Assembly (NCBI GenBank): GCA_002280875.1
Contig: NCEV01000003.1
Location: 92,999-156,998 of the forward strand
From: Caulobacter sp. 32-67-35
GTDB taxonomy: Bacteria; Pseudomonadota; Alphaproteobacteria; Caulobacterales; Caulobacteraceae
Length of the DNA stretch: 64,000 nucleotides
Reading direction: 5' to 3'
Shown: piece after piece, positions 15,494 through 56,697 of the stretch
Layout: each line of letters opens with the position of its first letter
Numbering within the stretch: the first letter of the stretch is position 1
Notes under the pieces: generated by a model
What the model saw: the letters and a program-made list of their open reading frames with translations, nothing else
Databases searched by the model: none
What the model was told of the DNA's origin: nothing
Translations under genes and position numbers: made by a program

Positions 15494-17785
15494 TCAGACG
15501 GGGTCGCTACCCAGAACCCGGGAATCGTTCTCCAGGCTCGACGTATCGAAGCCGTGATAGAGCGACAGGAAGCGGAACGGGTGCTCCTGATAGCTCTCGA
15601 ACATGATGTTGTTGATGTCCTTGGTGGTGTCGAAACACCCCAGAACTGCGTCAGGAGAGTGCCGCGTCAGGTGATGACGGCCCAGCAGCAGGGCCACCTG
15701 GTCGATCCAGCGGGTGACGGTTTCGCGGCCCAGCCGGTCGTCCAGATAGGCCCGCAGGAAGTTGAACAGCCGCGCCGCGTTCGGGGTGGGATTGACCAGC
15801 AGCAGGTTGGCGGTGATCCGTGAGCCGGCGGCCAGGTTCTTCCAGTTCTCGTTGAAGACGACGTCGGCCCTCGCCCACGCTTCCAGCAGGTCGCTGACCC
15901 CGTCCTGAAGCAACAGGTCGATGTCGGAGACGAAAATCGGCCGGCCCAGCGTCTCCAGCAGCCCGCCGAGACGCTGGAAGCGCACCGACTGGAAATGGGC
16001 CACCGGCAGGGCGATCAGCCCCTTGGGCGGCGCGTCATAGCAGCGGGTCGTCACGGCCGAGGCGTCGAAGTCGTCGCCCACGAAGACCAGCCGCTCGTCC
16101 TTGACGCCGACCGCCTTGACCGCTTCGGCCAGGCGCTCGGCGCCGCCGATCACGTGGATCACGACCAGGCTGGAGACGTCGCTGTGGCGCAATACCGACA
16201 GAGCGTACCAGCGGCCGTACTGGTCGACATATTTCTCGTCGGCGGCGGCGAAGAACACGGCCCGTATGCCGAGCCGGTCGGCCATGGCCTTCAGGCCGGC
16301 CGCGTCCAGCGCCTCGCCTGTCGCCGTCAGATAGCGCGCCGGCGCGTCAACTGTCGGCGCGGGGGTCGCCCCCGTGATCGAGCCGATGTCCAGCGAACCC
16401 AGCAGGGACCGGTAGTGATGCACCCAGTCGGCCCATTCGGGATCGGCCAGCAGATCGCCCACCGCCACCTTGGGAACCTCGGCCGCCAGATGGGTCAGCA
16501 GGCCGATATCGGCATCCGACAGCGGCCGGCACAGCAGCAGACTCATCGCCTCATGGAAGTCGCGCAGGCGCACCAGAGGATGGATGTCCTTGTCAGGCGA
16601 TACCGCCAGGACGGCCCGGTGGCGGATCTCGGTCGGATGGTCGCCCGCCGCGCGGGCCTCGTCGGCCAGCAGGGTCAGCGCGCCAACATGACCCGGATCC
16701 AGCACGATCAGACGGCGCGCGAAGTTCAGGGCCTCGTCCATGCGCCCCAGGGCCTGGTTGCAGCCCATGGCCGCCCCGACCATCTGGGCGCCGCCGGGCA
16801 TCAGGTCGGCCATCACCGACGCATAGGGCTCGGCCAGGACCACCTCGCCAGCGTTCAGGTGCCGGTTGAAGGCCTGGGACCCTAGCGAGGTCTGCTGCTG
16901 GATCAGGGGCCACAGGGCGTGGATGTCCGGCGTCAGGGCCTTGGCCTTCACCAGAGCCCGCAGCGCTTCCAGCACGCGCCCGCCCGCCAGGTGGCTGCGC
17001 GACACGCCGATCCAGGCGGCATAGTCATGCGCACCGCCCAGCAGGTGCTCGAACAGCACCAGGGCGTCCTCGGGCCGGTCCTCGTTGAACAGGCGCTCGG
17101 CCAGGGCCAGCACCTCATCCTGCCGACCGCCGGTCGATGAGGTCTCCGGGCGACGCAACCGGTCGGCCCGCTCGAACAGCACATCGATCTGCAGGAGCGC
17201 GTTGTCGCGCACCTCCGGCATGCGGTTGAATTCCATGACGTCCGCGCACTTGAAGCCCATCTGCGCCATCTTGGCGAAGACGTCCTCGGCCATGGCGCCG
17301 CCGATATTGTAGTCGACCAGCGACACCTCGATCTGGATGTAGTCGGCCCTGGCCAGCACCGCCTCGCCGCCCACCAGCACATCCAGTTCCGAGCCCTGGG
17401 TGTCGATCTTGACGAAGTCGAAGCTGCGGCCGGCCAGCAGGTCGTCGATCCGGGCCTTGTCGACCTCGTGCCGGATCGCGGTCTCGTCGTCGAAATAGTC
17501 GGTGTTCTCGCGATAGAGCGAACTGCCGGTCGATTGCAACCAGGTCTTGCTGAGGAACAGCTCGCCCTTGCCGGCCGCGTTCGACGCCGCCACCTCGTGC
17601 CGCTCGAACGGCAGCCGCAGCAGCTTGTCGCGGCAATGCGGGTTGGGCTCGATCAAGGTCGGCAGGCAGCCCGGAAACACCTCCAGGAACCCTTGCGTGA
17701 ACTCGCCCAGATGCGCGCCGACGTCCAGCAGCGTCCTTGGCGCGTAACCCTCGCGCCGCAAGGCCTCGAGGTGCTGGCGGTTCAT
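15494..17785 (-). CDS. FkbM-type methyltransferase fused to a putative glycosyltransferase
   Basis: The 763-residue protein is a fusion. Residues about 1-210 are an FkbM-type SAM methyltransferase: LLDVGAHLGEFTQGF (SAM loop), IEPNPHCRDKL and FVKIDTQGSELDVLVGG. The middle (about 225-470) is helical and TPR-like (ERLFNEDRPEDALVLFEHL and ALNFARRLIVLDPGHVGAL). Residues about 510-763 look like a nucleotide-sugar transferase, with GRPIFVSDIDLLLQDG carrying a DxD-type motif (Asp621-Ile-Asp623) and NENWKNLAAGSRITANLLLV. It has no membrane segment or signal. It starts 10 bases after the OGT-like gene and is third in the giant-protein operon. It could extend and O-methylate glycans started by the OGT; this role is inference. 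The GT family cannot be named from sight. Confidence 0.72.
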   Translation of the reverse strand: MNRQHLEALRREGYAPRTLLDVGAHLGEFTQGFLEVFPGCLPTLIEPNPHCRDKLLRLPFERHEVAASNAAGKGELFLSKTWLQSTGSSLYRENTDYFDDETAIRHEVDKARIDDLLAGRSFDFVKIDTQGSELDVLVGGEAVLARADYIQIEVSLVDYNIGGAMAEDVFAKMAQMGFKCADVMEFNRMPEVRDNALLQIDVLFERADRLRRPETSSTGGRQDEVLALAERLFNEDRPEDALVLFEHLLGGAHDYAAWIGVSRSHLAGGRVLEALRALVKAKALTPDIHALWPLIQQQTSLGSQAFNRHLNAGEVVLAEPYASVMADLMPGGAQMVGAAMGCNQALGRMDEALNFARRLIVLDPGHVGALTLLADEARAAGDHPTEIRHRAVLAVSPDKDIHPLVRLRDFHEAMSLLLCRPLSDADIGLLTHLAAEVPKVAVGDLLADPEWADWVHHYRSLLGSLDIGSITGATPAPTVDAPARYLTATGEALDAAGLKAMADRLGIRAVFFAAADEKYVDQYGRWYALSVLRHSDVSSLVVIHVIGGAERLAEAVKAVGVKDERLVFVGDDFDASAVTTRCYDAPPKGLIALPVAHFQSVRFQRLGGLLETLGRPIFVSDIDLLLQDGVSDLLEAWARADVVFNENWKNLAAGSRITANLLLVNPTPNAARLFNFLRAYLDDRLGRETVTRWIDQVALLLGRHHLTRHSPDAVLGCFDTTKDINNIMFESYQEHPFRFLSLYHGFDTSSLENDSRVLGSDPV

Positions 17786-17795
17786 CGGCGGACCC

Positions 17796-19838
17796 TCATC
17801 GGCGCTCGGCGGCGGCTATGTCTTCGGCGGTCCAGAGCCGGTTGTCGGGTCCCAGCGGCCGCGCCAGATGGCGACGGGTCAGGGCCGTCTTGTACAGGCT
17901 TTCGAAGTCGACCTCGGTCAGCATTTCGCGGTCGTCGCGATCCAGTTCGATGCCGATCTCCAGATAGGCCTCGAGATTGGCGATGTTCGGAGTCGGGCGC
18001 TGGCCGGCCTGATACTCGGCGACCATGTCGTGGAACAGGTCCTCAACGCTGCGGACCAGCAGGTCCATGTCGAACAGCACGCAGGTCGAGCGATGGGCCT
18101 CAAGCCGGTCGTGCAGGGCCCTCGTCCCCTCGCGGTCGGCCCCCAGGGCCACGGCGCGTTCGACATAGTCCTCGGCCGTCGCGCAAACCAGTTCGGGCAA
18201 GCCCGCCGAACGCACCAGACTGCCGCAGACCCGCGAGGCGAAACCCCGGCCCGACAGGGTCAGGACCGGCACAGCCATCCACAGGGCGTCAGACGCCGTG
18301 GTGTGGGCGCCATAGGGGGCGGTGTCCAGGAACAGGTCGGCCAACGGATAGCGGGCCATATGCATCGGATTGGGCTGCTTGGGCGCGAAGAACAATCGCT
18401 CACTCTCGACGCCGCGCAGGCGGGCCTGCTCGCGCAGGCGGGCATTGGTCTCGGGATTGCTGTCCAGCAGCCACAGCACGCTGCCCGGCGTGCGCTTCAG
18501 GATTTCCATCCAGCGGCCAAAGGTGAAGGGCGTGATCTTCTGCGGGCCGTTGAAGCAGCAGAAGACGAACGCGTCCTCGGGCAGGCCGGCGTCGGCGCGG
18601 CTGGGCCGGGCCTCGGCCACGATCCGCTTGCGATCATTAGGCTGGTAGCAGGGGATCCGGCGCACCGCCTCGGAATAGAAGCGCTCCAGCTCCGGCGGCG
18701 TGATCCATGGATCGCCGATGATGTAGTGATGGAACGGGCTGCCCATGGTGCCCGGATAGCCCAGCCAGTTGACCAGGATCGGGGCTGGACGACGGGCGAA
18801 GACCGGCGTGCGTGAGTCGCGCGTGTGGCCGTTCACATCGACCAGAATGTCGATCTGGTCATCGGCGATCCTGCGAGCAGCCTGGTCGTCGGTCATGCCG
18901 CGAATGTCGGTGTAGTGCTCGACGGCCGCCCGGGTGCGGGCGTTCAGGGCGTCGGTCGCCGGCGGGCCGCAATAATACGCAAAGACCTCGACCTTCTCAC
19001 GGTCGTGCAGCTCGAACAGCTCGGCCATCAGATAGCCGACGGCGTGGTCGCGCAGGTCGGACGACACATAGCCCACCCGCAGCCGGCGGCCGGTCAGGTC
19101 AATGGGCGCATCGCGGCGCTCGGCGATGATGGCCTCGGGCGCACAACTGCCGTCGCGCTCGGTGAAGGCGGCGGCGGCGCCCAGTTGCAGCAGCGGGTCG
19201 TCTGAATAGGCGGCCACCGACAGCGGGTTGATCCCCTTGAGCAGAGCGCGGCGGTCGACGCGCTCCCACGGCTCCAGCGGCGGCCATTTGCATTGCCCCA
19301 GCCGGGCCGCGACCAGCTGGCCCACGGCATCCAGCTGGGTGGGGTCAAGATCGGCGCAGCGCCAAAGGGCAGTCTCGGCGCGGCCGGCCTGCTGAGCCTC
19401 CAGCAGGGCGCGGGCCATCTGCTTGTAGGCTGAAAAGACGTAGTGGGCATTTGAGCCGGTGATGGCCAGGGGACGCGTGGCCGCAGCGTTCCAGGTGGTG
19501 ATCGCCACCTCCAGGGCCCCTGCCCGCTCCTGCAGACCGCCCAGATTGATATAGGCCGGCAGGAAATCCGGATTGAGGGCGATCGCCCGCTCCAGATTGG
19601 CCATCGCCGCCTCGGTCCCGCCGATCCCCGACTGCAGGGTCGCGCAGTTGAACAGGGCGATGAACAGCTGCGGGTGATCCGGATTGAACTGGATCCAGAT
19701 CTTGTAGACCTGCTCGGCCATGGCCGACTGGCCGGCGTCGGTGTAGCGCCCGGCGGCATTGATCAGATCGCCGAGCGACAGCCCCTGCGTGGTGATCGTC
19801 TGAAGTACGGCGAGGTCGTCGGATTCAACCATGATCAT
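17796..19838 (-). CDS. O-GlcNAc-transferase-like (GT41) protein glycosyltransferase with TPRs
   Basis: The 680-residue protein has TPR-like repeats at about 30-170 (AEQVYKIWIQFNPDHPQLF, NLERAIALNPDFLPAYINLG) followed by a GT41/SPINDLY catalytic region from about 250. Visible motifs are RRLRVGYVSSDLRDHAVGYL with the conserved His265, DILVDVNGHTRDSRTPVFARRP, WLGYPGTMGSPFHHYIIGD, CCFNGPQKITPFTFGRW (conserved Lys), and DTAPYGAHTTASDALWMAVP with GRGFASRVCGSL, which align by eye with human OGT. These enzymes attach a sugar to Ser or Thr in the cytoplasm. It lies 142 bases after the giant Ser/Thr-rich repeat gene. Starts at 19838 and 19832 (MIMVESDD or MVESDD) are both possible. The sugar donor is unknown. 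Confidence 0.88.
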   Translation of the reverse strand: MIMVESDDLAVLQTITTQGLSLGDLINAAGRYTDAGQSAMAEQVYKIWIQFNPDHPQLFIALFNCATLQSGIGGTEAAMANLERAIALNPDFLPAYINLGGLQERAGALEVAITTWNAAATRPLAITGSNAHYVFSAYKQMARALLEAQQAGRAETALWRCADLDPTQLDAVGQLVAARLGQCKWPPLEPWERVDRRALLKGINPLSVAAYSDDPLLQLGAAAAFTERDGSCAPEAIIAERRDAPIDLTGRRLRVGYVSSDLRDHAVGYLMAELFELHDREKVEVFAYYCGPPATDALNARTRAAVEHYTDIRGMTDDQAARRIADDQIDILVDVNGHTRDSRTPVFARRPAPILVNWLGYPGTMGSPFHHYIIGDPWITPPELERFYSEAVRRIPCYQPNDRKRIVAEARPSRADAGLPEDAFVFCCFNGPQKITPFTFGRWMEILKRTPGSVLWLLDSNPETNARLREQARLRGVESERLFFAPKQPNPMHMARYPLADLFLDTAPYGAHTTASDALWMAVPVLTLSGRGFASRVCGSLVRSAGLPELVCATAEDYVERAVALGADREGTRALHDRLEAHRSTCVLFDMDLLVRSVEDLFHDMVAEYQAGQRPTPNIANLEAYLEIGIELDRDDREMLTEVDFESLYKTALTRRHLARPLGPDNRLWTAEDIAAAERR

Positions 19839-19945
19839 CTCAGCGCGCGGATCGGGCCGGAGCGAGCCCGACTCGTCTCGTCAGATGTTCGCACGTCGGG
19901 GCAGCGTCACCAATCACCGCCCGGCCCGGCTATCCTCCTCTGGCC

Positions 19946-19967
19946 GCCGACGTCTTGCGACGCCGGC
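19946..19967 (-). other. GNRA-loop hairpin between giant gene and OGT-like gene
   Basis: On the minus strand GCCGGCGTC-GCAA-GACGTCGGC forms a 9-bp stem (one G-T pair) capped by a GCAA tetraloop, 13 bases after the giant gene's stop. No T run follows, so it is more likely an mRNA 3' stabiliser or partial attenuator that lowers downstream transferase expression than a full terminator. Confidence 0.5.
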
Positions 19968-19980
19968 GAACCGGAGGGTC

Positions 19981-22900
19981 TTAGCTCACGCCCAGGTAGG
20001 CGACGATCTGCGGATCCGAGAGGCTCTGGACCTGGGTCGTCGTCAGGGCGGCGGCCTGGGTGGCGGTCAGGGCCGAGATGCTGGTCGTGGTCAGGTTGTC
20101 CAGCTGGCTGACCGTCAAGCTGGCGATCTGGGTGCCTTGCAGCGAGCCAACCTGGGTCTCGGTCAGACCGCCGATCACCGTGGCCGACAGAGCCGCGATC
20201 TGACTGGTGGTCAGCGCCGCGATCTGGGTGTCGAACAGCTCGCCGATATCGGTGGTCGACAGACCCTTGATCTGGTTGACCGTCAGCCCCTTGACCTGGG
20301 TTGTGCTCAGCGCCGCCACCTGGGTGTCGACCAGAGCCGAGATGTTGGTCGGGCTCAGCGCAGCCAGCTGGCTGGTGGTGAGGGCGGCGACCTGGGTGTC
20401 GAGCAGTTCGCCGATATCGGTCGTCGTCAGGCCGCCCAGCTGCGCAGTCGTTAGACCCTTGATCTGGGTGGTGCTGAGCGCCGCCACCTGGGTGTCGGCC
20501 AGGGCCGAGAAGCTGGTGGCCGTCAGGGCGCCCAGTTGCGCCGTGCTGAGCGCGGCGACCTGGGTGGTCGACAACGCCTGCAGGGCGGTAGTGGCGAAGG
20601 CGGTGATCTGGCCGGTCGTCAGGGCGCTGACCTGGGTCGCCGACAGCTCGGCGATGTCCGTGGTCGACAGACCCTTCAGCTGGGTATTGGTCAGGCCCTT
20701 GATCTGGGTCGCCGAGATGCCCGCCATCTGGGTTTCGTCCAGCGCCGACAGGTTGGTCGCGTTCAGGGCGGCCAGTTGCAGGATGCTGAGCGCGGCCAAC
20801 TGGGTGTCGGCCAGGGCGCCGACCTGAGTGGTGGTCAGGGCCGTGATTTGCGAGGCCGTCAGGCCCTTGACCTGGGTCGTGCTGAGAGTCGCGACCTGGG
20901 TCTCGGTCATACCGGGCAGAACGCTCGGATTGAATGCCCCCACCTGGGCCGCCGACAGAGCGGCGATCTGGGTGGTGGTGAAGTCAGACCCGATATCCAG
21001 GTCGTCCATCGCCTTGAGCTGGGTCGTGGTGATGGCCTTGACCTGGGTTTCCGACAGCGCCCCGAACTGGGTAGCGTCGAAGGTCCGGATATTGCTGCCC
21101 AGGGCGGCGACCTGGGTCGGGGTCAGGGCCGCGATCTGGGTATCGACCAGGCCAGCGGCCTGATCCACGGTCAGGGCGCCGACCTGCAGAGCCGTCAGCC
21201 CCTTGACCTGGGTGGCGGTGAGCACGTCGATCTGGGTGTCGAACAGCGCCTTGACGTTGGTCGTCGTCAGACCTGCGATCTGGGTCGCGCTGAGCGCCTC
21301 GACCTGGGTGGTCGACAGCTGCTGGACGTTGGTGCTGGTGAAGGCGCCGATCTGAGCCGCCGTCAGAGCGCCGATCTGGGTGGCCAGCAGCTCGCCGACG
21401 TCGGCGGTGGACAGGCCCTTCAGCTGGGTCGCCGTCAGCGCCTGGACCTGGGTATTGCTCAGAGCCGCGACCTGGGTATCGACCAGGGCCGAGACATTGG
21501 TCTCGGACAGGGCCTTAAGCTGTTCCGCCGTCAGGGCGCCGATCTGGGTCTCGGAGAACTGCGCCATGTCGGCGGTGTTCAGACCCTTCAGCTGGGTGGC
21601 CGTAAGGGCCTTGATCTGGGTGGTCGACAGGGCCGCGACCTGGGTGTCGTCGAGCGCCGAGATGTTGGTCGCCGTCAGGCTGGTCAGTTGCGTCGGCGTC
21701 AGGGCCGCGATCTGGGTGTCGGCCAGCTCACCGATGTCGGCAGTCGTCAGGGCCTTCAGCTGCGAAGCGTTGAAGCCCTTGATCTGCGTGGCGTTCAGGA
21801 CCGCGATCTGTGTATCGGCCAAGGCCGAGATGCCGGTCGAGGTCAGAACGCTGATCTGGGCGGCGCTGAGGGCGCCGACCTGGGTTTCCGACAGGGCCTG
21901 CAGGTTGGTGGTGTCCAGGGCCGTGATCTGCGACGTGGTCAGGGCGCCGATCTGGGTGGCCGACAGCTCGCCGATGTCGGCGGGCGACAGGCCCCTCAGT
22001 TGGGTCGCCGTCAGGGCCCTGATCTGGGTCGTGGAGATGGCCGCGACCTGGGTCTCGTTCAGGGCCGAGATGTTGGTGGCGCTTAGCGCCGCCAGTTGCG
22101 AGGCGGCCAGGGCGGCCACCTGGGTGTCGAGCAGCTCGCCGATATCCGCCGTGCTCAGACCGCCCAGCTGGGTGGTCGTCAGGCCCTTGATCTGGGTGGC
22201 GCTCAGGGCGGCCATCTGGGTGTCGGCCAGGGCCGAGACGCCGGTGGTCGACAGGGCGCCCAGCTGGATGGCCGTCAGGGCTGCGATCTGGGTGTCGGCC
22301 AGCTCGCCGATATCGGCGGCGCTCAGCCCCTTCAGCTGCGTCGCCGTCAGGCCCTTGATCTGGGTGGCGCTTAGGGCTGCAACCTGGGTATCGGCCAGAG
22401 CCGAGACATTGGTCGCGCTGAGGGCGCCGATCTGGGCGGCGCTGAGGGCGCCGATCTGGGTGTCGGCCAGATCACCGACGTTGTCGGCGGTGAGGCGGGC
22501 AACCTGAGCCGTGGTCAAGCCCTTGATCTGGGTGGTGCTGAGCGCCGCGAACTGGGTATCAGCCAATTGGGTGACATTGGTCACCGACAGCGCGCCGATC
22601 TGGGTAGCGGTGAGCCCGCCGATCTGGGTCTCCGTCAGCGCCTGCAGGTTTGTGACCGACAGGGCCCCGACCTGGGCGGCGCTCAGGGCGCCGACCTGGG
22701 TGGCCGACAGCTCGCCGATATCGGCGACCGACAGGCCCTTCAGCTGAGTGGTGCTCAGCGCCTGGACCTGGGCGTTGCTCAGGGCGCCGACCTGGGTCTC
22801 ACTGAGAGCCGAGACATTGGTCTCCGACAGCGCCTTCAGCTGCTCGGCGCTCATGGCGGCCACCTGGGTAGTCGTCAGTTCGGCCATGTCGGCGGTCGAC

Positions 22901-25900
22901 AGACCCTTCAGCTGAGTCGCCGTCAGACCCTTGATCTGGGTCGTCGACAGGGCCGCCGTCTGGGTTTCGTTCAGGGCCGAGATGTTGGTGGCGCTCAGGG
23001 CGCTCAGCTGGACGGTGGACAGAGCCGCCACTTGGGTGTCGACCAGTTCGCCGATATCGGCCGTCGTCAGGGCCTTCAGCTGCGTGGCGGTCACGCCCTT
23101 GATCTGGGTGGTGCTCAGGGCCGCGACCTGGGTGTCGGCCAGGGCCGAGAAGCCGGTCGCGCTCAGGGCGCCCAGCTGGGCGGCGCTCAGGGCGGCGACC
23201 TGGGTGTCGGCCAGGTCAGCGATGTTATCAGCCGTCAGCTTCGACAGCTGAGCCACCGTCAGACCCTTGATCTGGGTGGTGCTCAGCGCGGCCAGCTGCG
23301 TGTCGGCCAGCTGGGTGATGCTGGTCGCCGCCAGGGCGCTGATCTGGGTGGCGCTCAGGCCGCCGATCTGGGTTTCAGACAGCTGCTGCAGGTTAGTGAT
23401 CGACAGGGCCGCGACCTGGGCCGAGGCCAGGGCGCCGACCTGGGTGGCCGACAGCTCGGTGATGTCGTCCGTCGACAGACCCTTCAGCTGGGTCGTGGTC
23501 AGGGACTGGACCTGGCTATTGCTCAGGGCGCCGACCTGGGTCTGGGTCAGGGCCGAGATGGCGGTGTCGGCGAAAGCCTTCAACTGCTCGCTGCTCAGAG
23601 CGCCGATCTGGGTCGTGGACAGCTGACTGACGTCTGTTTCGGACAGCCCCTTCAGCTGGGTCGCCGTCAGGCCCTTGACCTGGGTCGCCGAGAAGGCCTG
23701 GAGCTGGGGCTCGTCAAGGCTGGCGAGGTAGGACGCCTGCAGGCTGCCCACCTGGGCCGCCGAGAGCGAGCCCAGCTGCGTGACATTGAAGTCGGCATAT
23801 TCGCCGCCATCTAGCATCTTCAGCTGGGTCGTCGTCAGGGCCTTCATTTGGGTGGTGGTGAAGCCCGCGGTCTGGGTCTCGTCCAGATACTTGAAGCTGG
23901 TCGCGTTGAGCGCGGCGACTTGGCTGGTCGTCAGGGCCTCGATCTGGGTCGCGACCAGGGCGTCGGTCACGCCCGGGTGCATCGCCGCCATCTGCGAGGC
24001 GGTGAAGCCCTTGATCTGGGTGGTGCTCAGCACGCCGATATCGGCGTCGCTCAGACCCTGGATGTCGGTGATCTTCAGCGCGCCGATCTGGCTGGCGCTG
24101 AAGGCGCCGAACTGGGTCTCGTCCAGCGTGCCGACGGCCATGCCGCTGGGCAAGCCGGCGATCTGCGAGGTGGTGAAGCCTGCGATCTGGGTGGTCTGGA
24201 TGGCGTCAGAGTGCGCGCCAAGCAGCGCTTCAAACGCTGCCGTCTTGAGGGCGCCGATCTGGGTCGTCGTGAGCGTGGCGGCCTGGGTGTCGGTCATGGC
24301 GCTGACCCCGTTGCCGGTCAGCGACGACATCTGCGTGGCCGTCAGCGCGCCCAGCTGGGTGGTGTCCAGCCCCTGGATGCCCCCGGTGATCGAACCGACC
24401 TGGGTCGCCGTGAGGGCCTTGACCTGGGTGGTGGTCAGGGCTGCGACCTGGGTGTCGTTATACAGTATATCGTTGACGCTGGTGGTTGACAGCGCGGCCA
24501 CCTGAGTGGCCGACAACGTCGCGACCTGGGTGTCGAGCAGGCTGCCCACAGCCCAGCTGTTGAACCCTGCGACCTGGGTCGTCGTCAGAGCCTTGACCTG
24601 GGTTGTCGACAGCGCCGCGAAATGGTCGCCGCTCATATTGTTGAGCGCGGTTGTCGTCAGGGCGCTGATCTGGGTGGCCGTCAGGGCCCCGATCTGCGTA
24701 TCCGCCAGCGCGACGATCTCGTCGACGCCCAGGGCCTTGATCTGCGAGACGTTGAGCCCCTTGATCTGGCTCTCGGACAACGCAGCCAACTGGAAGCTGT
24801 TGAGCTCGATGAGGTTCGTCGCCGAGATGGCGCCGATCTGTGTGGCGGTGAGGCCGCCGATCTGGGTGGGGCTCAGTTGCTGCAGGTTGGTCACCGACAG
24901 CGCGCTGATCTGGGCTGCGCCCAGCTGACCGATCTGGGTGGACGACAGTTCGTCGATATCGGCGGTCGACAGGCCCTTCAGCTGGGTCGCCGTCAGCGCC
25001 GCAACCTGCGTGCCGGTCAGCGCCGAAACCTGGGTCTGGCTCAGGGCCGAGATGTTGGTTTCCGACAGCGCCTTCAGCTGTTCGGTGGTCAGGGCCGCCA
25101 CCTGGGTGTCGAGCAGCTCGCCGATGTCGGCGGTCGACAGGCCCTTGATCTGGGTGGCGGTCAGACCCTTGATCTGCGTCGCGCTCAGCGCGGCCGTCTG
25201 GGTCTCGTTCAGGGCCGAGATGCCCGTGGCAGACAGGCTGGACAGCTGGGTCGGGGTCAGGGCCGCAATCTGGGTGTCGGCGAGGTCGCCGATGTCAGCG
25301 GGCGACAGGCCCTTAAGTTGGGTGGCTGTCAGGGCCTTGATCTGGGTCGTGGTTAGCGCGGCAGTCTGGTCTTCATTGAGCGCGGAGACTCCCGTCGCGC
25401 TCAGCGCCGAAATCTGGGTCGCGGCCAGGGCCGCAACCTGGGTGTCGGCAAATTCAAGGATGTCGCCGGCGGTCAGGGCCGACAGTTGCGAGGTCGTCAG
25501 GCCCTTGATCTGCGTGGCGTTGAGCACGGCAATCTGGGTGTCGGCCAGGGCCAGGAAGGCCGTCGCGCCCATGGCGCCGATCTGCGAAGCGCTCATGGCG
25601 CCGATCTGAGTGGTCGTCAGGGCCTGCAGGTTGGTCACGCCCAGGGCTGCAGTCTGGGATGGCGTCATGGCGCCGATCTGATCGGCCGTCAGCTCGGCGA
25701 TGTCGGCGGTCGACAGACCCTTCAGCTGGGTCGTCGTCAGACCCTTGATCTGCGTTGCGGTCAGAGCCTGGGTCTGGGTCTCGTTCAGGGCCGAGATGTT
25801 GGTCGCCGTCAGCGAGCCCAGTTGGGCCACCGTCAGGGCCTGGATCTGGGTGTCGACCAGCTCGCCCATGTCGGCGGTAGACAGGCCCTTCAGCTGAGTG

Positions 25901-28149
25901 GGGGTCAGGCCCTTGATTTGTGTCGCGCTCAGCGCCGCAGTCTGGGTTTCATTCAGGGCCGAAACCGCCGTCGCCGAAAGGGCGCCGACCTGCGCCGCGG
26001 TCAGGGCGCCAACCTGGGTGTCAGCCAGCTCGCCGATGTCGGCGGCCGAGAGACCCTTCAGCTGATTGACCGTCAGGCCCTTGATCTGGGTGGCGCTCAG
26101 AGCCGCCATCTGGGTGTCGGCGAGGGCCGAGACGTTGGTCGCGCTGAGCGAGCCGATCTGGGCCGGCGTCAGGGCGCCGACCTGGGTATCGGCCAGATAG
26201 CTGACATTGGTGGTCGTCAAGGCGGCCAGCTGGCCGGCCGTGAAGCCCTTGATCTGGGTGGTGCTCAGCGCCGCGAACTGGGTATCGGCCAGCAGTTTGA
26301 CGTTGGTCGCGGACAGCGCGGCGATCTGCGAGGTGCTGATGCCGCCGATCTGGGTGGTCGACAGCTGCTGCAGGTTGGTGACCGACAGCGCGCCAATCTG
26401 GGCCGTGCTCAGGGCGCTGACCTGGGTCGACGACAGCTCGCCGATGTCGGCGACCGACAGGCCCTTCAGTTGGGTCGTGGTCAGGGCCTGGACCTGGCTG
26501 TTGCTGAGGGCGGCGATCTGGGTGTCGACCAGGGCCGAGATATTGGTCTCGGACATCGCCCTGAGCTGCTCGGCCGTCAGGGCGCCGATCTGGGTGGTCG
26601 AAAGCTCCCCGACGTCACCGGTGGACAGACCCTTGATCTGCACGGACGTCAGGCCCTTGACCTGCGTCACACTGAGCGCGGCCATCTGGGTCTGATCCAG
26701 CGCCGAGATGTTGGTGGCCGACAGGCTGGAAAGCTGCGCCGGAGTCAGGGCAGCCACCTGCGTGTCGGCCAGTTCGGCGATGTCGGCGGTCGTCAGTCCC
26801 TTCAGCTGGATCGGCGTCAGAGCCTTGATCTGCGTCGTGCTGAGCGCGGCGGTTTGGGTGGCGTTCAGGGTGGACACGCTCGTGGCGCTGAGCGACGAAA
26901 CCTGGACCGGCGTCAGGGCCGCCACCTGCGTGTCGGCCAGCTCGGCGACATCGGCTGTGGTCAGGGCCGAAAGCTGCGAGGCCGTCAGGCCCTTGATCTG
27001 GGTCTCGTTGAAAGCCGCGACCTGGGTGTCGGCCAGGGCCGAGAAGTTCGTGGCGCCCAGAGCGCCGACCTGCGCGGCCGAAAGGGCGCTGACCTGGGTT
27101 TCCGAAAGGGCCTGCACCTTGGTGACGTCCAGCACCGCGACCTGGGCCGTCGTCATCGCGCCAACCTGGGTCTCGGAGAGCTCGCCGATGTCGGCGGCGC
27201 TGAGGCCCTTAACCTGGGTGACCGAGAGGCCCTTGATCTGGGTCGCCGTCAGGGCCGCAACCTGCGTATCGACCAGAGCCGACACATTGGTGGCGCTGAG
27301 CGCCGTCACCTGCACCGCCGTCAAGGCGCCAACCTGGGTGTCGAGCAGCTTGCCCATGTCGGCGGTCGTCAAGTCTTTCAGCTGAACCGTCGTCAGGCCC
27401 CTGACCTGGGTGACGCTGAGCGCCGCCACCTGGGTGTCGGCCATGGCCGACACCTGGGTCGCCGCCAGCGCGCCGATCTGCGCCGCCGACAACGCGCCGA
27501 CCTGGGTGGTCGAAAGCTCGCCGATGTCGGCGGTCGTGAAGCCCTTCAGCTGCGTCGGCGTGAGGCTGCCGATCTGGGTGGTGGACAGCGCCGCCACCTG
27601 GGTGACGTCGAAGGACGAGACCTGGGCGCCCGACAGCGCGCCCAGCTGGGCGACCGAGAGAGCCTGCACCTGGGTATTGGCCAGTTCGCCAATGTCGGTG
27701 GTGGTCAGACCCTTCAGCTGGGTCGCCGTCATGCCCTTGATCTGGGTGGTCGAGAGCGCCGCCATCTGGGTGTCGACGAGACCCGAGAACTTGGTGGCCG
27801 ACAGCACGCTCACCTGCGTCGCGCTCAGCGCGCCGATATGGGAGGTGTCCAAGCCGGCCAGCTGAGTGGAGGTCAGGGCCGAAACCTGCTGGCCGCTGAG
27901 GGTGGTAAGCTGACTGACATCGAAGACCACGTTTGGCGCGAACTTCGGGATCTGGGTGGTGGTGAGGGCCTTGATCTGGGTCGCGCTGAGCGCCGCGACC
28001 TGGGTATCGGCCAGAACCTCAATGCCGCTGGCGTTGATGGCCCCGATCTGGGTGGAGCTGAGCGACTGGATCTCGGTGGTCGTCAGCGCCTGGATGGCGC
28101 TGGCGGGAAGGGCCGAGATTTGAGCGGCGGAGAGGCTCGAGATCGACAT
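19981..28149 (-). CDS. Giant octapeptide-repeat protein (2,722 residues), unknown function
   Basis: I do not recognise this protein. It starts MSISSLSAAQISALPASAIQ (28149; AGGA lies about 9 bases upstream) and ends DPQIVAYLGVS. Nearly all of it is an eight-residue repeat with consensus (S/A/T)xTQ(V/I/L)x(A/G)L, about 340 copies, arranged in a higher-order unit of seven octads (56 residues) such as ADTQVAAL-SATQIKGL-TATQLKGL-STADIGEL and so on. I see no Cys, very few aromatic residues and hardly any charge. Regular Val/Ile and Leu positions suggest a beta-solenoid or similar extended fold. There is no signal peptide, membrane segment or RTX motif, so any export must use the C-terminus or another route. 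Each octad offers several Ser/Thr, and a GT41 enzyme is encoded next. Confidence 0.9.
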   Translation of the reverse strand: MSISSLSAAQISALPASAIQALTTTEIQSLSSTQIGAINASGIEVLADTQVAALSATQIKALTTTQIPKFAPNVVFDVSQLTTLSGQQVSALTSTQLAGLDTSHIGALSATQVSVLSATKFSGLVDTQMAALSTTQIKGMTATQLKGLTTTDIGELANTQVQALSVAQLGALSGAQVSSFDVTQVAALSTTQIGSLTPTQLKGFTTADIGELSTTQVGALSAAQIGALAATQVSAMADTQVAALSVTQVRGLTTVQLKDLTTADMGKLLDTQVGALTAVQVTALSATNVSALVDTQVAALTATQIKGLSVTQVKGLSAADIGELSETQVGAMTTAQVAVLDVTKVQALSETQVSALSAAQVGALGATNFSALADTQVAAFNETQIKGLTASQLSALTTADVAELADTQVAALTPVQVSSLSATSVSTLNATQTAALSTTQIKALTPIQLKGLTTADIAELADTQVAALTPAQLSSLSATNISALDQTQMAALSVTQVKGLTSVQIKGLSTGDVGELSTTQIGALTAEQLRAMSETNISALVDTQIAALSNSQVQALTTTQLKGLSVADIGELSSTQVSALSTAQIGALSVTNLQQLSTTQIGGISTSQIAALSATNVKLLADTQFAALSTTQIKGFTAGQLAALTTTNVSYLADTQVGALTPAQIGSLSATNVSALADTQMAALSATQIKGLTVNQLKGLSAADIGELADTQVGALTAAQVGALSATAVSALNETQTAALSATQIKGLTPTQLKGLSTADMGELVDTQIQALTVAQLGSLTATNISALNETQTQALTATQIKGLTTTQLKGLSTADIAELTADQIGAMTPSQTAALGVTNLQALTTTQIGAMSASQIGAMGATAFLALADTQIAVLNATQIKGLTTSQLSALTAGDILEFADTQVAALAATQISALSATGVSALNEDQTAALTTTQIKALTATQLKGLSPADIGDLADTQIAALTPTQLSSLSATGISALNETQTAALSATQIKGLTATQIKGLSTADIGELLDTQVAALTTEQLKALSETNISALSQTQVSALTGTQVAALTATQLKGLSTADIDELSSTQIGQLGAAQISALSVTNLQQLSPTQIGGLTATQIGAISATNLIELNSFQLAALSESQIKGLNVSQIKALGVDEIVALADTQIGALTATQISALTTTALNNMSGDHFAALSTTQVKALTTTQVAGFNSWAVGSLLDTQVATLSATQVAALSTTSVNDILYNDTQVAALTTTQVKALTATQVGSITGGIQGLDTTQLGALTATQMSSLTGNGVSAMTDTQAATLTTTQIGALKTAAFEALLGAHSDAIQTTQIAGFTTSQIAGLPSGMAVGTLDETQFGAFSASQIGALKITDIQGLSDADIGVLSTTQIKGFTASQMAAMHPGVTDALVATQIEALTTSQVAALNATSFKYLDETQTAGFTTTQMKALTTTQLKMLDGGEYADFNVTQLGSLSAAQVGSLQASYLASLDEPQLQAFSATQVKGLTATQLKGLSETDVSQLSTTQIGALSSEQLKAFADTAISALTQTQVGALSNSQVQSLTTTQLKGLSTDDITELSATQVGALASAQVAALSITNLQQLSETQIGGLSATQISALAATSITQLADTQLAALSTTQIKGLTVAQLSKLTADNIADLADTQVAALSAAQLGALSATGFSALADTQVAALSTTQIKGVTATQLKALTTADIGELVDTQVAALSTVQLSALSATNISALNETQTAALSTTQIKGLTATQLKGLSTADMAELTTTQVAAMSAEQLKALSETNVSALSETQVGALSNAQVQALSTTQLKGLSVADIGELSATQVGALSAAQVGALSVTNLQALTETQIGGLTATQIGALSVTNVTQLADTQFAALSTTQIKGLTTAQVARLTADNVGDLADTQIGALSAAQIGALSATNVSALADTQVAALSATQIKGLTATQLKGLSAADIGELADTQIAALTAIQLGALSTTGVSALADTQMAALSATQIKGLTTTQLGGLSTADIGELLDTQVAALAASQLAALSATNISALNETQVAAISTTQIRALTATQLRGLSPADIGELSATQIGALTTSQITALDTTNLQALSETQVGALSAAQISVLTSTGISALADTQIAVLNATQIKGFNASQLKALTTADIGELADTQIAALTPTQLTSLTATNISALDDTQVAALSTTQIKALTATQLKGLNTADMAQFSETQIGALTAEQLKALSETNVSALVDTQVAALSNTQVQALTATQLKGLSTADVGELLATQIGALTAAQIGAFTSTNVQQLSTTQVEALSATQIAGLTTTNVKALFDTQIDVLTATQVKGLTALQVGALTVDQAAGLVDTQIAALTPTQVAALGSNIRTFDATQFGALSETQVKAITTTQLKAMDDLDIGSDFTTTQIAALSAAQVGAFNPSVLPGMTETQVATLSTTQVKGLTASQITALTTTQVGALADTQLAALSILQLAALNATNLSALDETQMAGISATQIKGLTNTQLKGLSTTDIAELSATQVSALTTGQITAFATTALQALSTTQVAALSTAQLGALTATSFSALADTQVAALSTTQIKGLTTAQLGGLTTTDIGELLDTQVAALTTSQLAALSPTNISALVDTQVAALSTTQVKGLTVNQIKGLSTTDIGELFDTQIAALTTSQIAALSATVIGGLTETQVGSLQGTQIASLTVSQLDNLTTTSISALTATQAAALTTTQVQSLSDPQIVAYLGVS
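19981..28149 (-). repeat. 24-bp coding repeat array with 168-bp higher-order period
   Basis: The coding DNA repeats every 24 bases (one octad) and shows a 168-base super-period (seven octads). The DIGEL-type octad recurs at about 21401, 21569, 21737, 21977, 22145 and 22313: spacings of 168, 168, 240, 168 and 168, where 240 is ten octads. Period shifts in whole octads point to past duplication or deletion by recombination. The stretch from about 23690 to 24660 is the least regular. Confidence 0.88.
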
Positions 28150-50079: not shown

Positions 50080-51615
50080 TCAGTTGGCCAGACGGCGCAG
50101 GAACGACGGGATTTCCAGATCCTCGCCTTCGTCAATCTGTTGCGCTTCCAGAGGCTGAGCAGCCGGGCGGGCGCTGGTGGTCGAGCGGGCCTGGGGCTGC
50201 TGTTGCGGCGCGGGCGGCTGATAGTCGCGCTGGCGGCCACCGCCAAACAGGCTCATCCAACCCGACTTCTGCGGCTGACGGTCGGCATAGTGCTGCTCGG
50301 TGTAGAGCGGCGCATCATCGGCCTCCTCGACCATCGGATCGACGATCCGGGTGACCGTGCGGGGGGCCGGGGTGGTGATCCGAGGCTCGGGGGCGGCCTC
50401 GGACACGACGGGCTCCTGGAAATAGAGATCGGCCTGCGGCGCCTGGGCGACGACCTCCGGCTCCGGCTCATAGGCGGGCTCGGGCGCGTAGGACGTCGGC
50501 TGGGCGACCGGGCGATCCAGCGGCCGGGCTTCGTAGCGCGAGGTCGGACGGGCCGGCTCGGGCTGTGGGGCCGGACGCGTGGTGTCGACGATCAACGGCG
50601 CGGTCGTGGTGTTGCGCGTGACAGGCTTGGGCTCGATCTGGGCGATGGAGGCGCCGTCCATGCCGGTGGCGACCACCGAGACGCGGATCACGCCTTCTAG
50701 CGACGGATCGAAGGCCGCGCCGAAGATGATGTTGGCTTCCGGATCGACCTGATCGGAGATGGCGTTGGCGGCTTCGTCGACTTCCAGCAGCGTCATGTCC
50801 ATGCCGCCGGTCACGTTGACCAGCACGGCCTTGGCGCCCTTCAGCGAGACTTCGTCCAGCAGCGGGTTGGCGATGGCGTTTTGGGCGGCCATCAGGGCGC
50901 GGTCTTCGCCGGTGCCCTCGCCGGTGCCCATCATCGCCTTGCCCATTTCGGTCATGACCGTGCGGACGTCGGCGAAGTCGAGGTTGATCAGGCCCGGCAG
51001 AACCATCAGGTCGGTGATCGAACGAACGCCCGAGTGCAGCACCTGGTCGGCCATGCCGAAGGCTTCGGCGAAGGTGGTGCGCTCGTTGGCGACGCGGAAC
51101 AGGTTCTGGTTGGGAATGACGATCAGGGTGTCGACATAACGCTGCAGCTCACCGATGCCGGCGTCGGCCAGGCGCATCCGGTGGCGGCCTTCGAAGTGGA
51201 AGGGCTTGGTGACGACGCCGACCGTCAGGATGCCGCGCTCGCGCGCGCACTTGGCGATGATCGGGGCAGCGCCGGTGCCGGTGCCGCCGCCCATGCCGGC
51301 GGTGATGAAGACCATGTGAGCGCCATCCAGGTGCTCGCCGATCTCGGGGAAGCTTTCTTCAGCGGCGCTCATGCCCACTTCGGGGTGCGCGCCGGCGCCC
51401 AGGCCCTGGGTGACCTGCACGCCCAGCTGGATGCGACGGTCGGTCTTGGCGAACTGGAGTTGCTGCGCGTCGGTATTGGCGACCACGAACTCAACACCTT
51501 CGAGGCCCGCCTCGATCATGTTGTTGACGGCGTTGCCGCCAGCGCCACCGACGCCGAACACGACGATACGCGGCTTCAGTTCAGTGGTGCGCGGCGCAGA
51601 AAGTGAAATAGCCAT
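50080..51615 (-). CDS. ftsZ: Cell-division protein FtsZ
   Basis: The 511-residue protein starts [20 protein letters not shown]. The tubulin-like core has [17 protein letters not shown], the GTP loop [13 protein letters not shown] and the T7 loop [11 protein letters not shown]. From about residue 320 a long Pro/Glu/Ala-rich linker follows, as in Caulobacter, ending in the conserved C-terminal peptide [14 protein letters not shown] that binds FtsA. It assembles the cytokinetic ring. A start three codons earlier is possible. The promoter region carries a CtrA box and GANTC sites. It is the last gene of the dcw cluster, with its own 306-base upstream region. Confidence 0.98.
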
Positions 51616-51715
51616 GGAACCCACGCGACCTTACGCCGAAATCGTCAAACAGGACCCCGGCGGAGCAACCGTCGGGAACGCCTCGACGATCGGGTTAACA
51701 AAACAACCACCATCG

Positions 51716-51730
51716 TTAATCGGCGGTTAA
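51716..51730 (-). promoter_or_regulatory. CtrA binding box upstream of ftsZ
   Basis: TTAATCGGCGGTTAA is an exact TTAA-N7-TTAA site, 101 bases before the ftsZ start codon. In Caulobacter CtrA represses ftsZ in swarmer cells through such a site. Further TTAA half-sites occur around 51695. Confidence 0.88.
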
Positions 51731-51741
51731 CTGCATAATAT

Positions 51742-51809
51742 GAGTCGGGGACAGGTCGAGCGCTGCCAGAGCACAATTCGTGCGCCATCAACAGAATCTC
51801 TTGGGAGTC
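51742..51809 (-). promoter_or_regulatory. Cluster of CcrM-type GANTC sites in the ftsZ promoter
   Basis: Three GANTC sites occur within 70 bases (GAGTC 51742-51746, GAATC 51794-51798, GAGTC 51805-51809). In Caulobacter, adenine methylation by CcrM together with GcrA links ftsZ expression to replication; such clustering agrees with that. Confidence 0.7.
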
Positions 51810-51921
51810 CAAGGGTTCCGCGCCGGTGTTGATAGTTGATGCGACCGAACGCCGCTGTCGTCTATTTCGCGACTTGGCGAGAGCTTGACCACGCGCTCAA
51901 GCATGGCCTTTGGCGCAACCG

Positions 51922-53247
51922 TTAAAGGTTGTCGCGCAACCAGGCGGCGGCCTTGGCCATCGGGCTCGCGTTCGGATCGATCGGACGCTTGCGCAGGGCG
52001 GCCGTCGCCAGGGCCTTGGGCGAGACCACTTCGCGCGGACCAAAGGCCGAGCGGTGCAGCACGCCGGCGGCGGCGCAGAAGGCCGGGCCCGAGGCGGCGT
52101 CGGCCAAGTGTGGCACCCGGCGCGGACGGCCCAGGCGAACCGGACGGTCGAACACCCGCACGGCCACTTCGCGCACGCCGGCCAGCTGGCTGGCGCCGCC
52201 GGTCAGGACGATGCCCGCGCCCGGTTCGACCGGCGCGCCCGAGGCCTTCAGGCGCTCGCGCAGCAGTTCCAGGGTTTCCTCGACGCGCGGCTGGATGATG
52301 CCCTTGAGCAGACTGCGCGGCGCGATCACCGGACCCGCGCCCGGATCGTCGCCGCGCGGCGGGGCTTCGATCATCTCGCGGTCTTCATTGGCCGAGGCGA
52401 TGGCGCTGCCGTGCAGGGTCTTGATGCGCTCGGCGCCGGCGACCGAGGTCTGCAGGCCGCGCGCGATATCCTGCGTCACGTGCCCGCCGCCGACAGCCAG
52501 GCTGTCGACGTGGCACAGGGCGCCATTGTTAAACACCGCCACCGAGGTCGAGCCGCCGCCCATGTCGATGCAGACGGCGCCTAGGTCCATCTCGTCCTCT
52601 TCCAGGGCCGCCAGGGCCGAGGCGAAGGGCGCGGCGACCACGCCCTCGAAGGACAGGTGGGCGCGCTCGACACAGTGGGCCAGAGTGTGGAAGACGTTCT
52701 CGTTGATCGAGACGACCAGCAGTTCCAGGCCCAGGGCGCGACCAAACATGGCGCGCGGATCGCGAATGCCGCGCTGGCCGTCGACCGACCAGGCGATGGG
52801 CAGCAGGTGGATTGGCTTACGACCGGAAATCTTGACCTGGGCCAGGGCCGAGGCGATGGCGCGCGAAAGGTCGCCGTCGGCGATGGGCCGGGCGCCCAGC
52901 GAAACCTGGGTGTGAACGCGGTTGCTGGCCAGCTGACCGCCGGCCGTACAGATGCTGACGCCCTGGACGTTGACGCCGGCCACGGTCTCGGCGCGCTCGA
53001 CGGCCTGGGCGATGGCTTGCGCCGCCTCGTCCAGATTGACGATGGCCCCGCCGCGTACGCCGCGCGACTGCACATAGCCGACGCCGGCCGTGGTCAGGGT
53101 GCGGTTTTCGCGATGAATGCCGTCGGCCTTCATGATGAAGCAGGTGACCTTGGACGCGCCCAGATCGACAGCCGCGACCGCAGGCTGACGAACGAGCGTC
53201 GCCTTCAAGCCGTCACGGGCCTGTTTCCGATCTTCCAGTCGCGACAT
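51922..53247 (-). CDS. ftsA: Cell-division protein FtsA
   Basis: The 441-residue actin-like protein starts MSRLEDRKQARDGLKATLVR, with phosphate-1 motif VAAVDLGASKVTCFI, GVSICTAGGQLASNRVHTQV in the 1C domain, phosphate-2 motif VCIDMGGGSTSVAVF, GIVLTGGASQLAG and the amphipathic C-terminal tail MAKAAAWLRDNL that anchors it to the membrane. It tethers FtsZ. I chose ATG 53247; a GTG four codons earlier (53259) is an alternative. It follows the broken ftsQ frame by 27 bases. Confidence 0.96.
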   Translation of the reverse strand: MSRLEDRKQARDGLKATLVRQPAVAAVDLGASKVTCFIMKADGIHRENRTLTTAGVGYVQSRGVRGGAIVNLDEAAQAIAQAVERAETVAGVNVQGVSICTAGGQLASNRVHTQVSLGARPIADGDLSRAIASALAQVKISGRKPIHLLPIAWSVDGQRGIRDPRAMFGRALGLELLVVSINENVFHTLAHCVERAHLSFEGVVAAPFASALAALEEDEMDLGAVCIDMGGGSTSVAVFNNGALCHVDSLAVGGGHVTQDIARGLQTSVAGAERIKTLHGSAIASANEDREMIEAPPRGDDPGAGPVIAPRSLLKGIIQPRVEETLELLRERLKASGAPVEPGAGIVLTGGASQLAGVREVAVRVFDRPVRLGRPRRVPHLADAASGPAFCAAAGVLHRSAFGPREVVSPKALATAALRKRPIDPNASPMAKAAAWLRDNL

Positions 53248-53274
53248 CGCTATCGTCACCCCAACACCATCACG

Positions 53275-54124
53275 CTACGCCCCGCCGGCCCCGGTCTGCC
53301 CAGGCAGAGCCGCGTCGCGAGGTCTCACTGCCACCATCTCGGGATCACGCAGGTCGATGCGCGCAAACCCCAGATCGAGGATTCTCTGTCTCTGGTCCAA
53401 CTGATCCAGCTGGATCAGGGCAGATTCTTCGTCGATCGCCGGAAGCTGGATCAGCGAGCCGTCCTTCAGGCGCAGATCCCAGCGGCGATCATCGACGCGC
53501 ACCAGCGCTTCCAGACGGTCGCGTAGGCGTGGACGGGCGGCGACGGCCGGCAGGATCGCGCCGGCGGCCTGGTCGGCGCCCTGCCCCACCACCAGCGGCA
53601 ATTGCGGGAAACGCGCGGCGTCGGCCTCGGAGATCACCCGGCCTTCGCCGTCGATGACCCGCATGCGGCCGCCGCTCTGCCAGACGGCCAGCGCGGGGCG
53701 CTCCTCAACGCTCGACCCGTTGGCGGATCTCGGCGAGGTCGAGGCCCAGGGTGGGCTGATCGAGATAGAGGCCCGCGGCACGGCGAATATCGGCGTCGGC
53801 CTGAGCGGACGCGCCCTGAACGTGCAGGGTCTTCAGCTTGAAGCCGGCGGTCGCGAATTCGCTGTCCACGCCCTGGCGCGCAGCCGTGACGAGGCGCTCG
53901 GCCCGATGGCCGGTCGCGAGCATCACCACAAGCCCAAGGCCAAGCGCCGCGCCGGCGACCCCCAAGGCGAACGCGGGCGACAAGCCCACGCCCTTGGCGG
54001 CGCGCAGTTTAGCGGCCGGCTGCGCCCCCTTGGGCGCCGCCGAACGAGCCTTGTTCGGACTTGCGGGCGCTTCGGCCCGAGGGCGCCTAGGCTTAGGCGA
54101 TCCCCCCCGCACTACAGCGGGCAT
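53275..54124 (-). pseudogene. ftsQ: Cell-division protein FtsQ with internal frame-breaking deletion
   Basis: The N-terminal part (54124 to 53705) starts [20 protein letters not shown], a basic cytoplasmic tail, then the membrane helix ALGVAGAALGLGLVVMLATG and the POTRA domain (LKTLHVQGASAQADADIRRA, LYLDQPTLGLDLAEI). It leaves frame after IRQRVE near 53710. The rest (VEERPALAVWQSGGRMRVID through LDLGFARIDLRDPEMVAV) reads in another frame to 53275. In intact FtsQ about 20 residues (the WVKxAxVxRxxPxTxxIxVEER strand) stand between; only its end (VEERPALAV) is left. ftsQ is essential, so this is probably a sequencing or assembly error rather than a real pseudogene. Overlap with ddl is 32 bases. 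Confidence 0.85.
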
Positions 54125-55064
54125 AAGCGTCCTCCACGATCCAGAGCACTAGTTGATCAAACGAAATTCCAACGTGGTCGGCCTGCTCGGGTGCGAGCGA
54201 AGTCGGTGTCATGCCGGGTTGCGTATTGACCTCTAGAAGGACCAGAAGGTCGTTAATGTCGTCATAACGGAAGTCAGATCGGGTTACGCCTTGGCAACCA
54301 AGAGCTGTGTGGCCAAGCTCGGCCATCCGCATGGCCCTATCCCTTACGCTGTCAGGGATTGGGGCCGGCAGCACGTGGATGGAACCGCCTTCCGAGTACT
54401 TGGCGTCGTAGTCATAGAAACCTGTGGACGAGCGAATATCGGTCACCGCCAGGGCCCTGGGACCATTTGACTCACCCAGCACGGCGACCGCCAGCTCCAG
54501 CCCGCGCACATAGGGCTCGACCATGACCTCCTCGCCGTAAGTCCATGTGGGAGCAGACAATTCCACCGGCGGACGGTTGGCGCCTTCCAGAACGATGAAC
54601 ACCCCAACCGAAGATCCCTCGGCATTGGGCTTCACCACGTAGGGTGGCTGCATCACATGGTCGCGTGCGACGTCGTGGCGGCTGAAAAGCCCGCCGCCGG
54701 GCACGGTGACACCCGCAGCGGCCAGCACGGCCTTGGCCTTGGCCTTGTCCATGGCGAGCGCCGAGGCCAGAACGCCGGAGTGGGTGTAGGGCAGTTTCAG
54801 CGTTTCCAGCACGCCCTGCACGCAGCCGTCCTCGCCCCATTCACCATGCAGGGCGTTGAAGACCAGGTCCGGCGCGACCCTGGTCAGCACCTGGGCCACG
54901 TCCTTGCCGGGATCGACGCGGGTGACCCTGGCCCCCAGTCGCTCCAGCGCATCGGCGCATTCCCGGCCCGAGACCAGGCTGACCTCGCGCTCTGAAGACG
55001 GGCCGCCGAGCAGGACGGCGATGTGGCGGCCGGCCAAGGGGGCGTCGGTGTTCGGCTGGGTCAT
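54093..55064 (-). CDS. ddl: D-alanine--D-alanine ligase
   Basis: The 323-residue ATP-grasp protein starts [20 protein letters not shown], with [65 protein letters not shown] and the C-terminal [11 protein letters not shown] and [20 protein letters not shown], all standard Ddl signatures. It joins two D-Ala for peptidoglycan precursor synthesis. It lies between the M28 peptidase and ftsQ and shares 32 bases with ftsQ. Confidence 0.96.
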
Positions 55065-55128
55065 GGAGGGGCTCGTGAACTAGGGCTGAGCACTCCTAGT
55101 CAGCCGGAGCCCTCCTGCCAATATCGGT

Positions 55129-55230: not shown

Positions 55231-55238
55231 GGTTCAGG

Positions 55239-56642: not shown

Positions 56643-56697
56643 AGGCGAGGAGTCTCCCGAAATTTGGCCGGCTATAGGCTGCGCAGCTCAAACAAGC

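Follow-up and report, generated by a model that had tools for sequence, protein, structure and literature searches.

A giant octad-repeat gene of the ALTTAQ family and the adjoining gene for a GT41 (OGT-family) glycosyltransferase form the conserved core of a locus in the stretch of Caulobacter DNA analyzed here (64,000 nucleotides, hereafter the window). The reading we favor, and regard as probable on balance, is that the two gene products constitute a dedicated cytosolic O-glycosylation pair in which the enzyme acts on the neighboring repeat protein; we infer the substrate role of the repeat, and likewise which residues accept the sugar, which sugar is used, in what order the steps occur and whether there is any export. 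ORF calling on the minus strand returned three consecutive ORFs: that of the ALTTAQ octad-repeat protein, the proposed glycosylation substrate (19981..28149, 2,722 amino acids); that of the GT41 (OGT-like) enzyme (17796..19838, 680 amino acids), which follows after 142 bases; and, after another 10 bases, that of an optional partner combining FkbM-methyltransferase, TPR-like and GT-A-like parts (15494..17785, 763 amino acids). The coordinates, the shared strand, both gaps and the GT41 and FkbM assignments given in a preliminary description of this DNA were all reproduced.

The repeat protein and the GT41 enzyme

The repeat protein matched the Pfam model PF20080 (ALTTAQ_rpt) in 101 stretches (E 9e-302; 972.9 bits against a curated cut-off of 26.4). 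Segmentation assigned 2,688 of the 2,722 residues to 336 octads, a softer profile giving 330, with the pattern L-[S/T]-x-[T]-Q-[I/V/L]-x-[A/G] and a longer period of 56 residues superimposed on it. The residue autocorrelation reached 0.34 for a lag of 8 residues and 0.48 for one of 56, compared with at most 0.127 in 200 shuffles, and Ser and Thr together account for 694 of the 2,722 residues (25.5%). Assignments of the repeat to LRR or sigma-70 domains were rejected, as these matches were weaker than PF20080 and driven by composition.

The 680-residue protein matched PF13844 (E 1.2e-80; 271.7 bits against a curated cut-off of 25), and its nearest solved structure is XcOGT (2jlb, E 1.8e-91), with H265 of the window enzyme aligned to H218 of XcOGT. 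H265, K434 and the motif HTTASD, which we take to be catalytic, are invariant across 28 GT41 orthologues. The Pfam TPR matches (TPR_12/TPR_14) are confined to residues 15-176 (19311..19796), so the N-terminal TPR arm is short.

To obtain a model of the repeat, residues 1-330 (27160..28149) were aligned with 27 relatives, and the structure predicted from these 28 sequences contains 39 short helices (pLDDT 94.7, pTM 0.83). In the 38 octads covered, positions 1-2 are predicted as loop and positions 3-7 as helix, so that each helix of the model begins with positions 3-4, and the Ser or Thr at position 2 would cap the helix, as any repeat of this kind should. With the remainder of the 2,722 residues extrapolated from this segment, the repeat protein would be a regular screw to which each octad contributes a short helix and is probably not extended, because residues 1-330 are predicted as a helical screw; the extended chain implied in the preliminary description is thus replaced, for that segment, by a folded one. 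A Foldseek search with the screw model gave weak matches to mesothelin only (seven at E <= 0.001, TM at most 0.37). The solved 120-residue octad protein 'HeliScrew4' (PDB 9zem) aligns at E 1.8e-13; its positions 3-4 are mostly P and E/D, whereas the window repeat has A/T and T there.

Conservation of the pair and repeat genes elsewhere

The genomes of the genus were searched with PF20080 at a cut-off of 1e-7 and for GT41 orthologues, defined as pieces scoring at least 400 bits, all other matches scoring 360 bits or less. Of the 75 genomes, the same 31 have both genes and 44 have neither (Fisher 9e-22, descent not corrected for). In all 30 genus loci other than the window the repeat ORF lies upstream of the GT41 gene on the same strand, with gaps of 7-276 bases, and at eight loci of GT41 paralogues, hand-chosen from the genus matches, a repeat ORF was found in none. 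A scan of a species genome collection with the 28-orthologue alignment resulted in 395 GT41 relatives, of which the best 80 were examined (the named loci). The repeat ORF is upstream in 77 of these best 80 of 395, with a median gap of 132 bases (range -71 to 276). In two of the three misses, L144 and L158, the contig ends 123 and 507 bases upstream, and the third, L125, lacks a repeat gene within 10 kb. Fifteen of the 80 loci are identical in DNA to a genus locus, which leaves 62 of 65 as independent cases. Record titles among the best 80 of 395 name Caulobacter, Phenylobacterium, Hyphomonadaceae, Magnetospirillum, Azospirillum, Rhodoplanes, Asticcacaulis and others, and the laboratory strain C. 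vibrioides DSM 9893 carries the pair at L103. Myxococcales, delta proteobacterium and Opitutia are each named in the title of one metagenome-assembled genome (MAG) record, possibly through faulty binning. Because the repeat gene usually lies beside the GT41 gene, this arrangement suggests that the enzyme coats the repeat protein with sugars.

The preliminary description suggested looking for the three genes as a conserved neighborhood. The pair is conserved, being found in all 31 genus genomes having either gene and at most of the named loci, and the third gene is optional: a relative is present at 25 of the 30 genus loci, one of the five absences falling at a contig end, and at 32 of the best 80 of 395. 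The trio was accordingly ruled out as the conserved unit.

Several loci depart from the common arrangement. At L157 (1-12997) repeat genes lie on both sides of the GT41 gene, the second encoding 2,858 amino acids. At L060 (G022:C4:380500-385400) the PF20080 matches recur three times with equal scores, 1,485 bases apart, which suggests a recent triplication within the repeat gene; this gene was also read as two ORFs. At L125 (8813-12094) the GT41 orthologue stands beside a gene for UDP-xylose synthase (UXS), and the enzyme is possibly used on its own there.

Repeat genes also occur apart from a GT41 gene. In the genus, unlinked repeat genes were retrieved at 20 places with one ORF each, all in pair-bearing genomes: seven ORFs of 527-812 amino acids, one of 1,127, eleven of 1,338-1,445 and one of 2,323. 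The genome of the window holds a second, shorter ALTTAQ-repeat gene in pieces at the end of one contig (G000:C160, L072 3203-3820) and the start of another (G000:C152, L071 1-1029); the pieces overlap in residues at the break, and the gene seems cut by the two contig ends. The unlinked genes of 527-812 amino acids in sister genomes are related to it.

Beyond the genus, strong PF20080 matches were found in at least 6 of 387 class genomes and at least 15 of 397 phylum genomes (the latter including a single genus member), both counts being lower bounds, as the cut-offs used missed the window's own genome. A GT41 match at E <= 1e-20 accompanies the repeat in 5 of the 6 class genomes and 12 of the 14 phylum genomes outside the genus. 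In G421 the GT41 matches are distant and unlinked only, and in the repeat-bearing genomes G509, G915 and G1059 none was found at 1e-20. Family f151 carries the repeat in 39 of 277 genomes; among 40 genomes (these 39 and G1059), 25 have a GT41 match of at least 580 bits, one has a match of 338 bits and 14 have none at 1e-100. The repeat can therefore exist without the enzyme, which argues against strict dependence. The preliminary description held that its proposal would fall if homologues of the repeat protein usually lacked a GT41 neighbor. The 14 of 40 f151 genomes and the common unlinked paralogues go part of the way toward this, but the genus paralogues that were fetched sit in pair-bearing genomes.

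A different arrangement was seen in family f178, where single ORFs of about 2,460-3,780 amino acids contain three or four GT41 matches in tandem (G853:C92:27047-35818, G825:C29, G842:C30 and G860:C1). Repeat ORFs of more than 5,000 amino acids also occur in G853, G825 and G860, and in G853 a multi-GT41 ORF adjoins a 3,369-residue repeat ORF.

Serine and threonine along the octad

The number of Ser and Thr residues per octad was compared between repeat proteins linked and not linked to a GT41 gene, using ORFs of at least 250 amino acids with octad coverage of at least 85% and dropping overlapping shorter ORFs. In the genus, positions 3 and 4 together carry a median of 1.25 in linked proteins (30) versus 0.82 in unlinked ones (21), with p 1e-8, a contrast that also tracks gene class, as linked giants are compared with shorter unlinked paralogues. 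Other linked repeat proteins have a median of 1.29 (59). In f151 the corresponding values are 0.97 for linked proteins (26) and 0.66 for those from genomes without a GT41 match at 1e-100 (10; G1059 was assigned by 1e-20), with p 7e-6; unlinked repeats from f151 genomes that do have GT41 are as rich in Ser and Thr as linked ones (0.94, 10 proteins; p 0.34). These p-values are too small, since the proteins within groups are related. At position 2 the Ser/Thr content shows no difference (p 0.09 in the genus, p 0.14 in f151). The residues lie mainly at position 4 in the genus and at position 3 in f151, and in 330 octads of the window protein position 4 is Ser or Thr in 247, position 3 in 98 and either in 277. 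Outside the groups stand L211-L215, L218-L221 and L225-L240, including L221 (GT41 nearby) with a low value of 0.83 and L211 (unlinked) with a high one of 1.33, as well as L216 and L224, which have no GT41, octad coverage of 0.55 and 0.50 and values of 0.47 and 0.42.

This pattern fits a repeat protein that serves as the enzyme's substrate, and on that point the earlier proposal gains from the conserved pair and the Ser/Thr distribution and loses from the existence of repeats without GT41. It could also be read as structural: a preference for Ser and Thr at helix starts, combined with lineage drift, would account for the richness with no glycosylation at all, and the two proteins would cooperate in some other way, for example with the repeat binding the TPRs and localizing the enzyme. 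Some repeat homologues do come from genomes that lack a strong GT41 match, and these retain both the octad and the Ser/Thr of position 2, and the genus contrast follows gene class as well. Against this stand the restriction of the shift to positions 3-4, its presence in two separate contrasts and the more frequent Asp/Glu at position 4 in f151 repeats without GT41 (median 0.47 versus 0.25). We judge the structural explanation to be improbable.

Companion genes, proposed mechanism and alternatives

In the third protein, the FkbM domain (residues 21-179, 17249..17725) matched PF05050 (E 5e-17; 63 bits against a cut-off of 22.7) and TIGR01444 (72 bits against 37.7). A TPR-like helical middle follows, and then a C-terminal alpha/beta domain containing SDIDLLL (about residues 480-735, 15581..16348), in which S620-L624 (SDIDL, DxD-like) does not vary among 23 aligned proteins. 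The Pfam scan returned no glycosyltransferase family for the protein, and its Foldseek list was dominated by TPR matches, so the term GT-A-like reflects the motif together with the secondary-structure prediction. The FkbM part is absent from 8 of the 23 aligned proteins and is carried by a separate ORF in L111. Described earlier as an FkbM/glycosyltransferase fusion, the protein does have FkbM and glycosyltransferase-like parts; the TPR-like middle is added to that description, and the FkbM part is missing from several relatives. Since the gene is optional, extension and O-methylation of the sugars, proposed as a general step, would be lineage-specific at most.

Two sugar-nucleotide genes were found near the pair. 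UXS is UDP-glucuronate decarboxylase, whose product is UDP-xylose; the copy at L117 matched human UDP-glucuronic acid decarboxylase 1 at E 1e-121, the next kind of protein following at 6e-37. UXS was found in 30 of 31 pair-positive genus genomes versus 9 of 44 pair-negative ones, the sole miss being G050, which is 76% complete. With the L117 copy as query (L117 itself being counted too) and a threshold of 390 bits, it lies in the flank of 17 of the best 80 of 395 (including L125, which has no repeat gene) and of 3 of the 30 genus loci, low fractions that count against the link, and of none of the 8 GT41-paralogue or 20 unlinked genus repeat loci. Clustering of neighbors by blastp yielded mostly shadow ORFs, with a UXS cluster in 21 of the best 80 of 395 at a loose cut-off. 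In the window's genome UXS sits on other contigs than the pair, and ten UXS surroundings in eight genus genomes contained no repeat, GT41, third-gene, flagellar or UDP-galactopyranose mutase (UGM) match, other genes there being judged from their first residues only; at L285 the surroundings resemble a sugar or polysaccharide cluster. UGM (PF03275), searched with a query from L245, a locus also counted, lies near 20 of 21 f151 pairs and none of 21 unlinked or GT41-free f151 repeat loci. UXS or UGM thus accompanies the pair according to clade, although either could instead serve another glycosyltransferase or glycan. Because of this company the transferred sugar is probably not GlcNAc: the O-linked sugars of the usual GT41 kind presumed earlier give way to companion genes that point to xylose or galactofuranose.

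The mechanism that we propose for the glycosylation pair is as follows. The repeat protein would fold into a long screw, each octad forming one short helix, and the GT41 enzyme would move one sugar from a UDP-sugar to Thr or Ser at the helix starts (octad positions 3-4), in the window mostly to Thr4 of L-S/T-x-T-Q-I-x-x. Because OGT-type active sites accept extended peptide, transfer would probably occur during chain synthesis or before the screw closes; positions 3-4 are predicted in helix, where such a site would not normally reach them, and this counts against the proposal. The sugar or its extension would probably involve xylose in the window's lineage and galactofuranose in f151. At loci that include the third gene, the GT-A-like domain of its product may add a second sugar, which the FkbM domain may O-methylate. 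Also against the proposal are the repeats without GT41 and L125, with its GT41 and UXS genes and no repeat gene, and the p-values overstate the association because loci and genomes are related by descent.

If the proposal is true, bacterial GT41 enzymes gain a natural, dedicated and highly repetitive substrate with the acceptor in fixed register, and with it a simple setting for testing the choice of site and sugar. The donor sugar would differ between clades while the enzyme and substrate families stay constant, and part of the ALTTAQ repeat family would receive its first function. A literature search, with preprints and most subscription papers outside its scope, returned no account of the repeat/GT41 pairing and no paper mentioning ALTTAQ or HeliScrew.

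The nearest known designs are FlmG and HMW1A/HMW1C, the latter two encoded at one locus. HMW1A of Haemophilus is a high-molecular-weight adhesin with a dedicated soluble GT41-type enzyme, HMW1C (PMC3983070, PMC3012730), and it resembles the window pair in both respects. The system differs in that HMW1C is an Asn-transferase, whereas the window enzyme scored far below the cut-off of the HMW1C-like N-glycosyltransferase model NF049992 of NCBIfam (16.4 versus 1000 bits), and in that no two-partner-secretion domain was matched in the window proteins scanned. OGT, XcOGT and SPINDLY share PF13844 and an alignable His, Lys and HTTASD with the window enzyme. They have many or unknown substrates and use UDP-GlcNAc or GDP-fucose as donor, and the window enzyme differs from them in its one fixed partner gene and the company of UXS or UGM. 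FlmG of Caulobacter crescentus is described as a soluble, cytosolic flagellin O-glycosyltransferase with TPR and GT-B parts that acts on Ser/Thr (PMC7591256). By that description it is like the window enzyme, as proposed here, in being a cytosolic TPR enzyme for Ser/Thr of specific proteins, and is set apart by its substrates, flagellins, and its sugar, pseudaminic acid.

FlmG also provides the model for another alternative, in which the GT41 enzyme modifies a different protein, such as flagellin, and the screw is an unmodified scaffold or chaperone or is merely co-regulated. Flagellar matches above 100 bits flank 6 of the best 80 of 395 (representing five genomes, as L117 and L168 belong to a single isolate), 5 of 21 f151 pair loci and 0 of 49 control loci; the associated p of 0.016 is post hoc and leaves out the 30 genus loci, and the ten query proteins were taken from L245, L117, L166 and L179, which are themselves among the 11 positive loci and had prompted the test. 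At L245 (2-19901) fliP lies on one side of the pair and three flagellin genes on the other, and a UGM gene is also present. None of the 30 genus loci nor the window has a flagellar match, and the explanation leaves the Ser/Thr shift at positions 3-4 unaccounted for. Some lineages may have a flagellar link, which for the window is weak, and we hold it to be as improbable as the structural account that flagellin or another protein is the actual target.

A broader version of the favored proposal, which we consider quite unlikely, is a widespread 'glyco-screw' in which the cytosolic OGT-family enzyme would decorate one face of the screw, per turn, with a clade-specific sugar (xylose or galactofuranose, on Thr4 or Thr3), and the screw, bearing no Sec signal, would exit via the flagellum or act on it. 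More doubtful still is the full version of the preliminary description, an exported surface or matrix glycoprotein bearing usual GT41 O-linked sugars that are extended and methylated by the third gene: the GT41 family membership and the FkbM partner in the window agree with it, but the third gene is optional, the sugar genes point elsewhere and a surface location is unsupported, because no signal peptide or anchor was visible by eye at the repeat-protein termini, no two-partner-secretion or wall-anchor domain of the adhesin type appeared in a Pfam scan of the whole protein, and no secretion-system component was found among the window ORFs scanned with Pfam.

Other genes of the window were also considered. 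The GH53, GH3 and TonB neighbors were rejected as parts of the system, their annotation being carbohydrate uptake and use; the GH3 position is retained in many, not all, genus loci. Between 38001 and 40000, around small ORFs, G+C drops to 0.57 from about 0.67 window-wide, and one small ORF of this stretch was scanned and had no Pfam match. On the minus strand, 50080-59087 encodes ftsZ, ftsA, D-Ala ligase, an M28 peptidase, murB and a Mur ligase, which, the peptidase excepted, is a normal division and cell-wall cluster.
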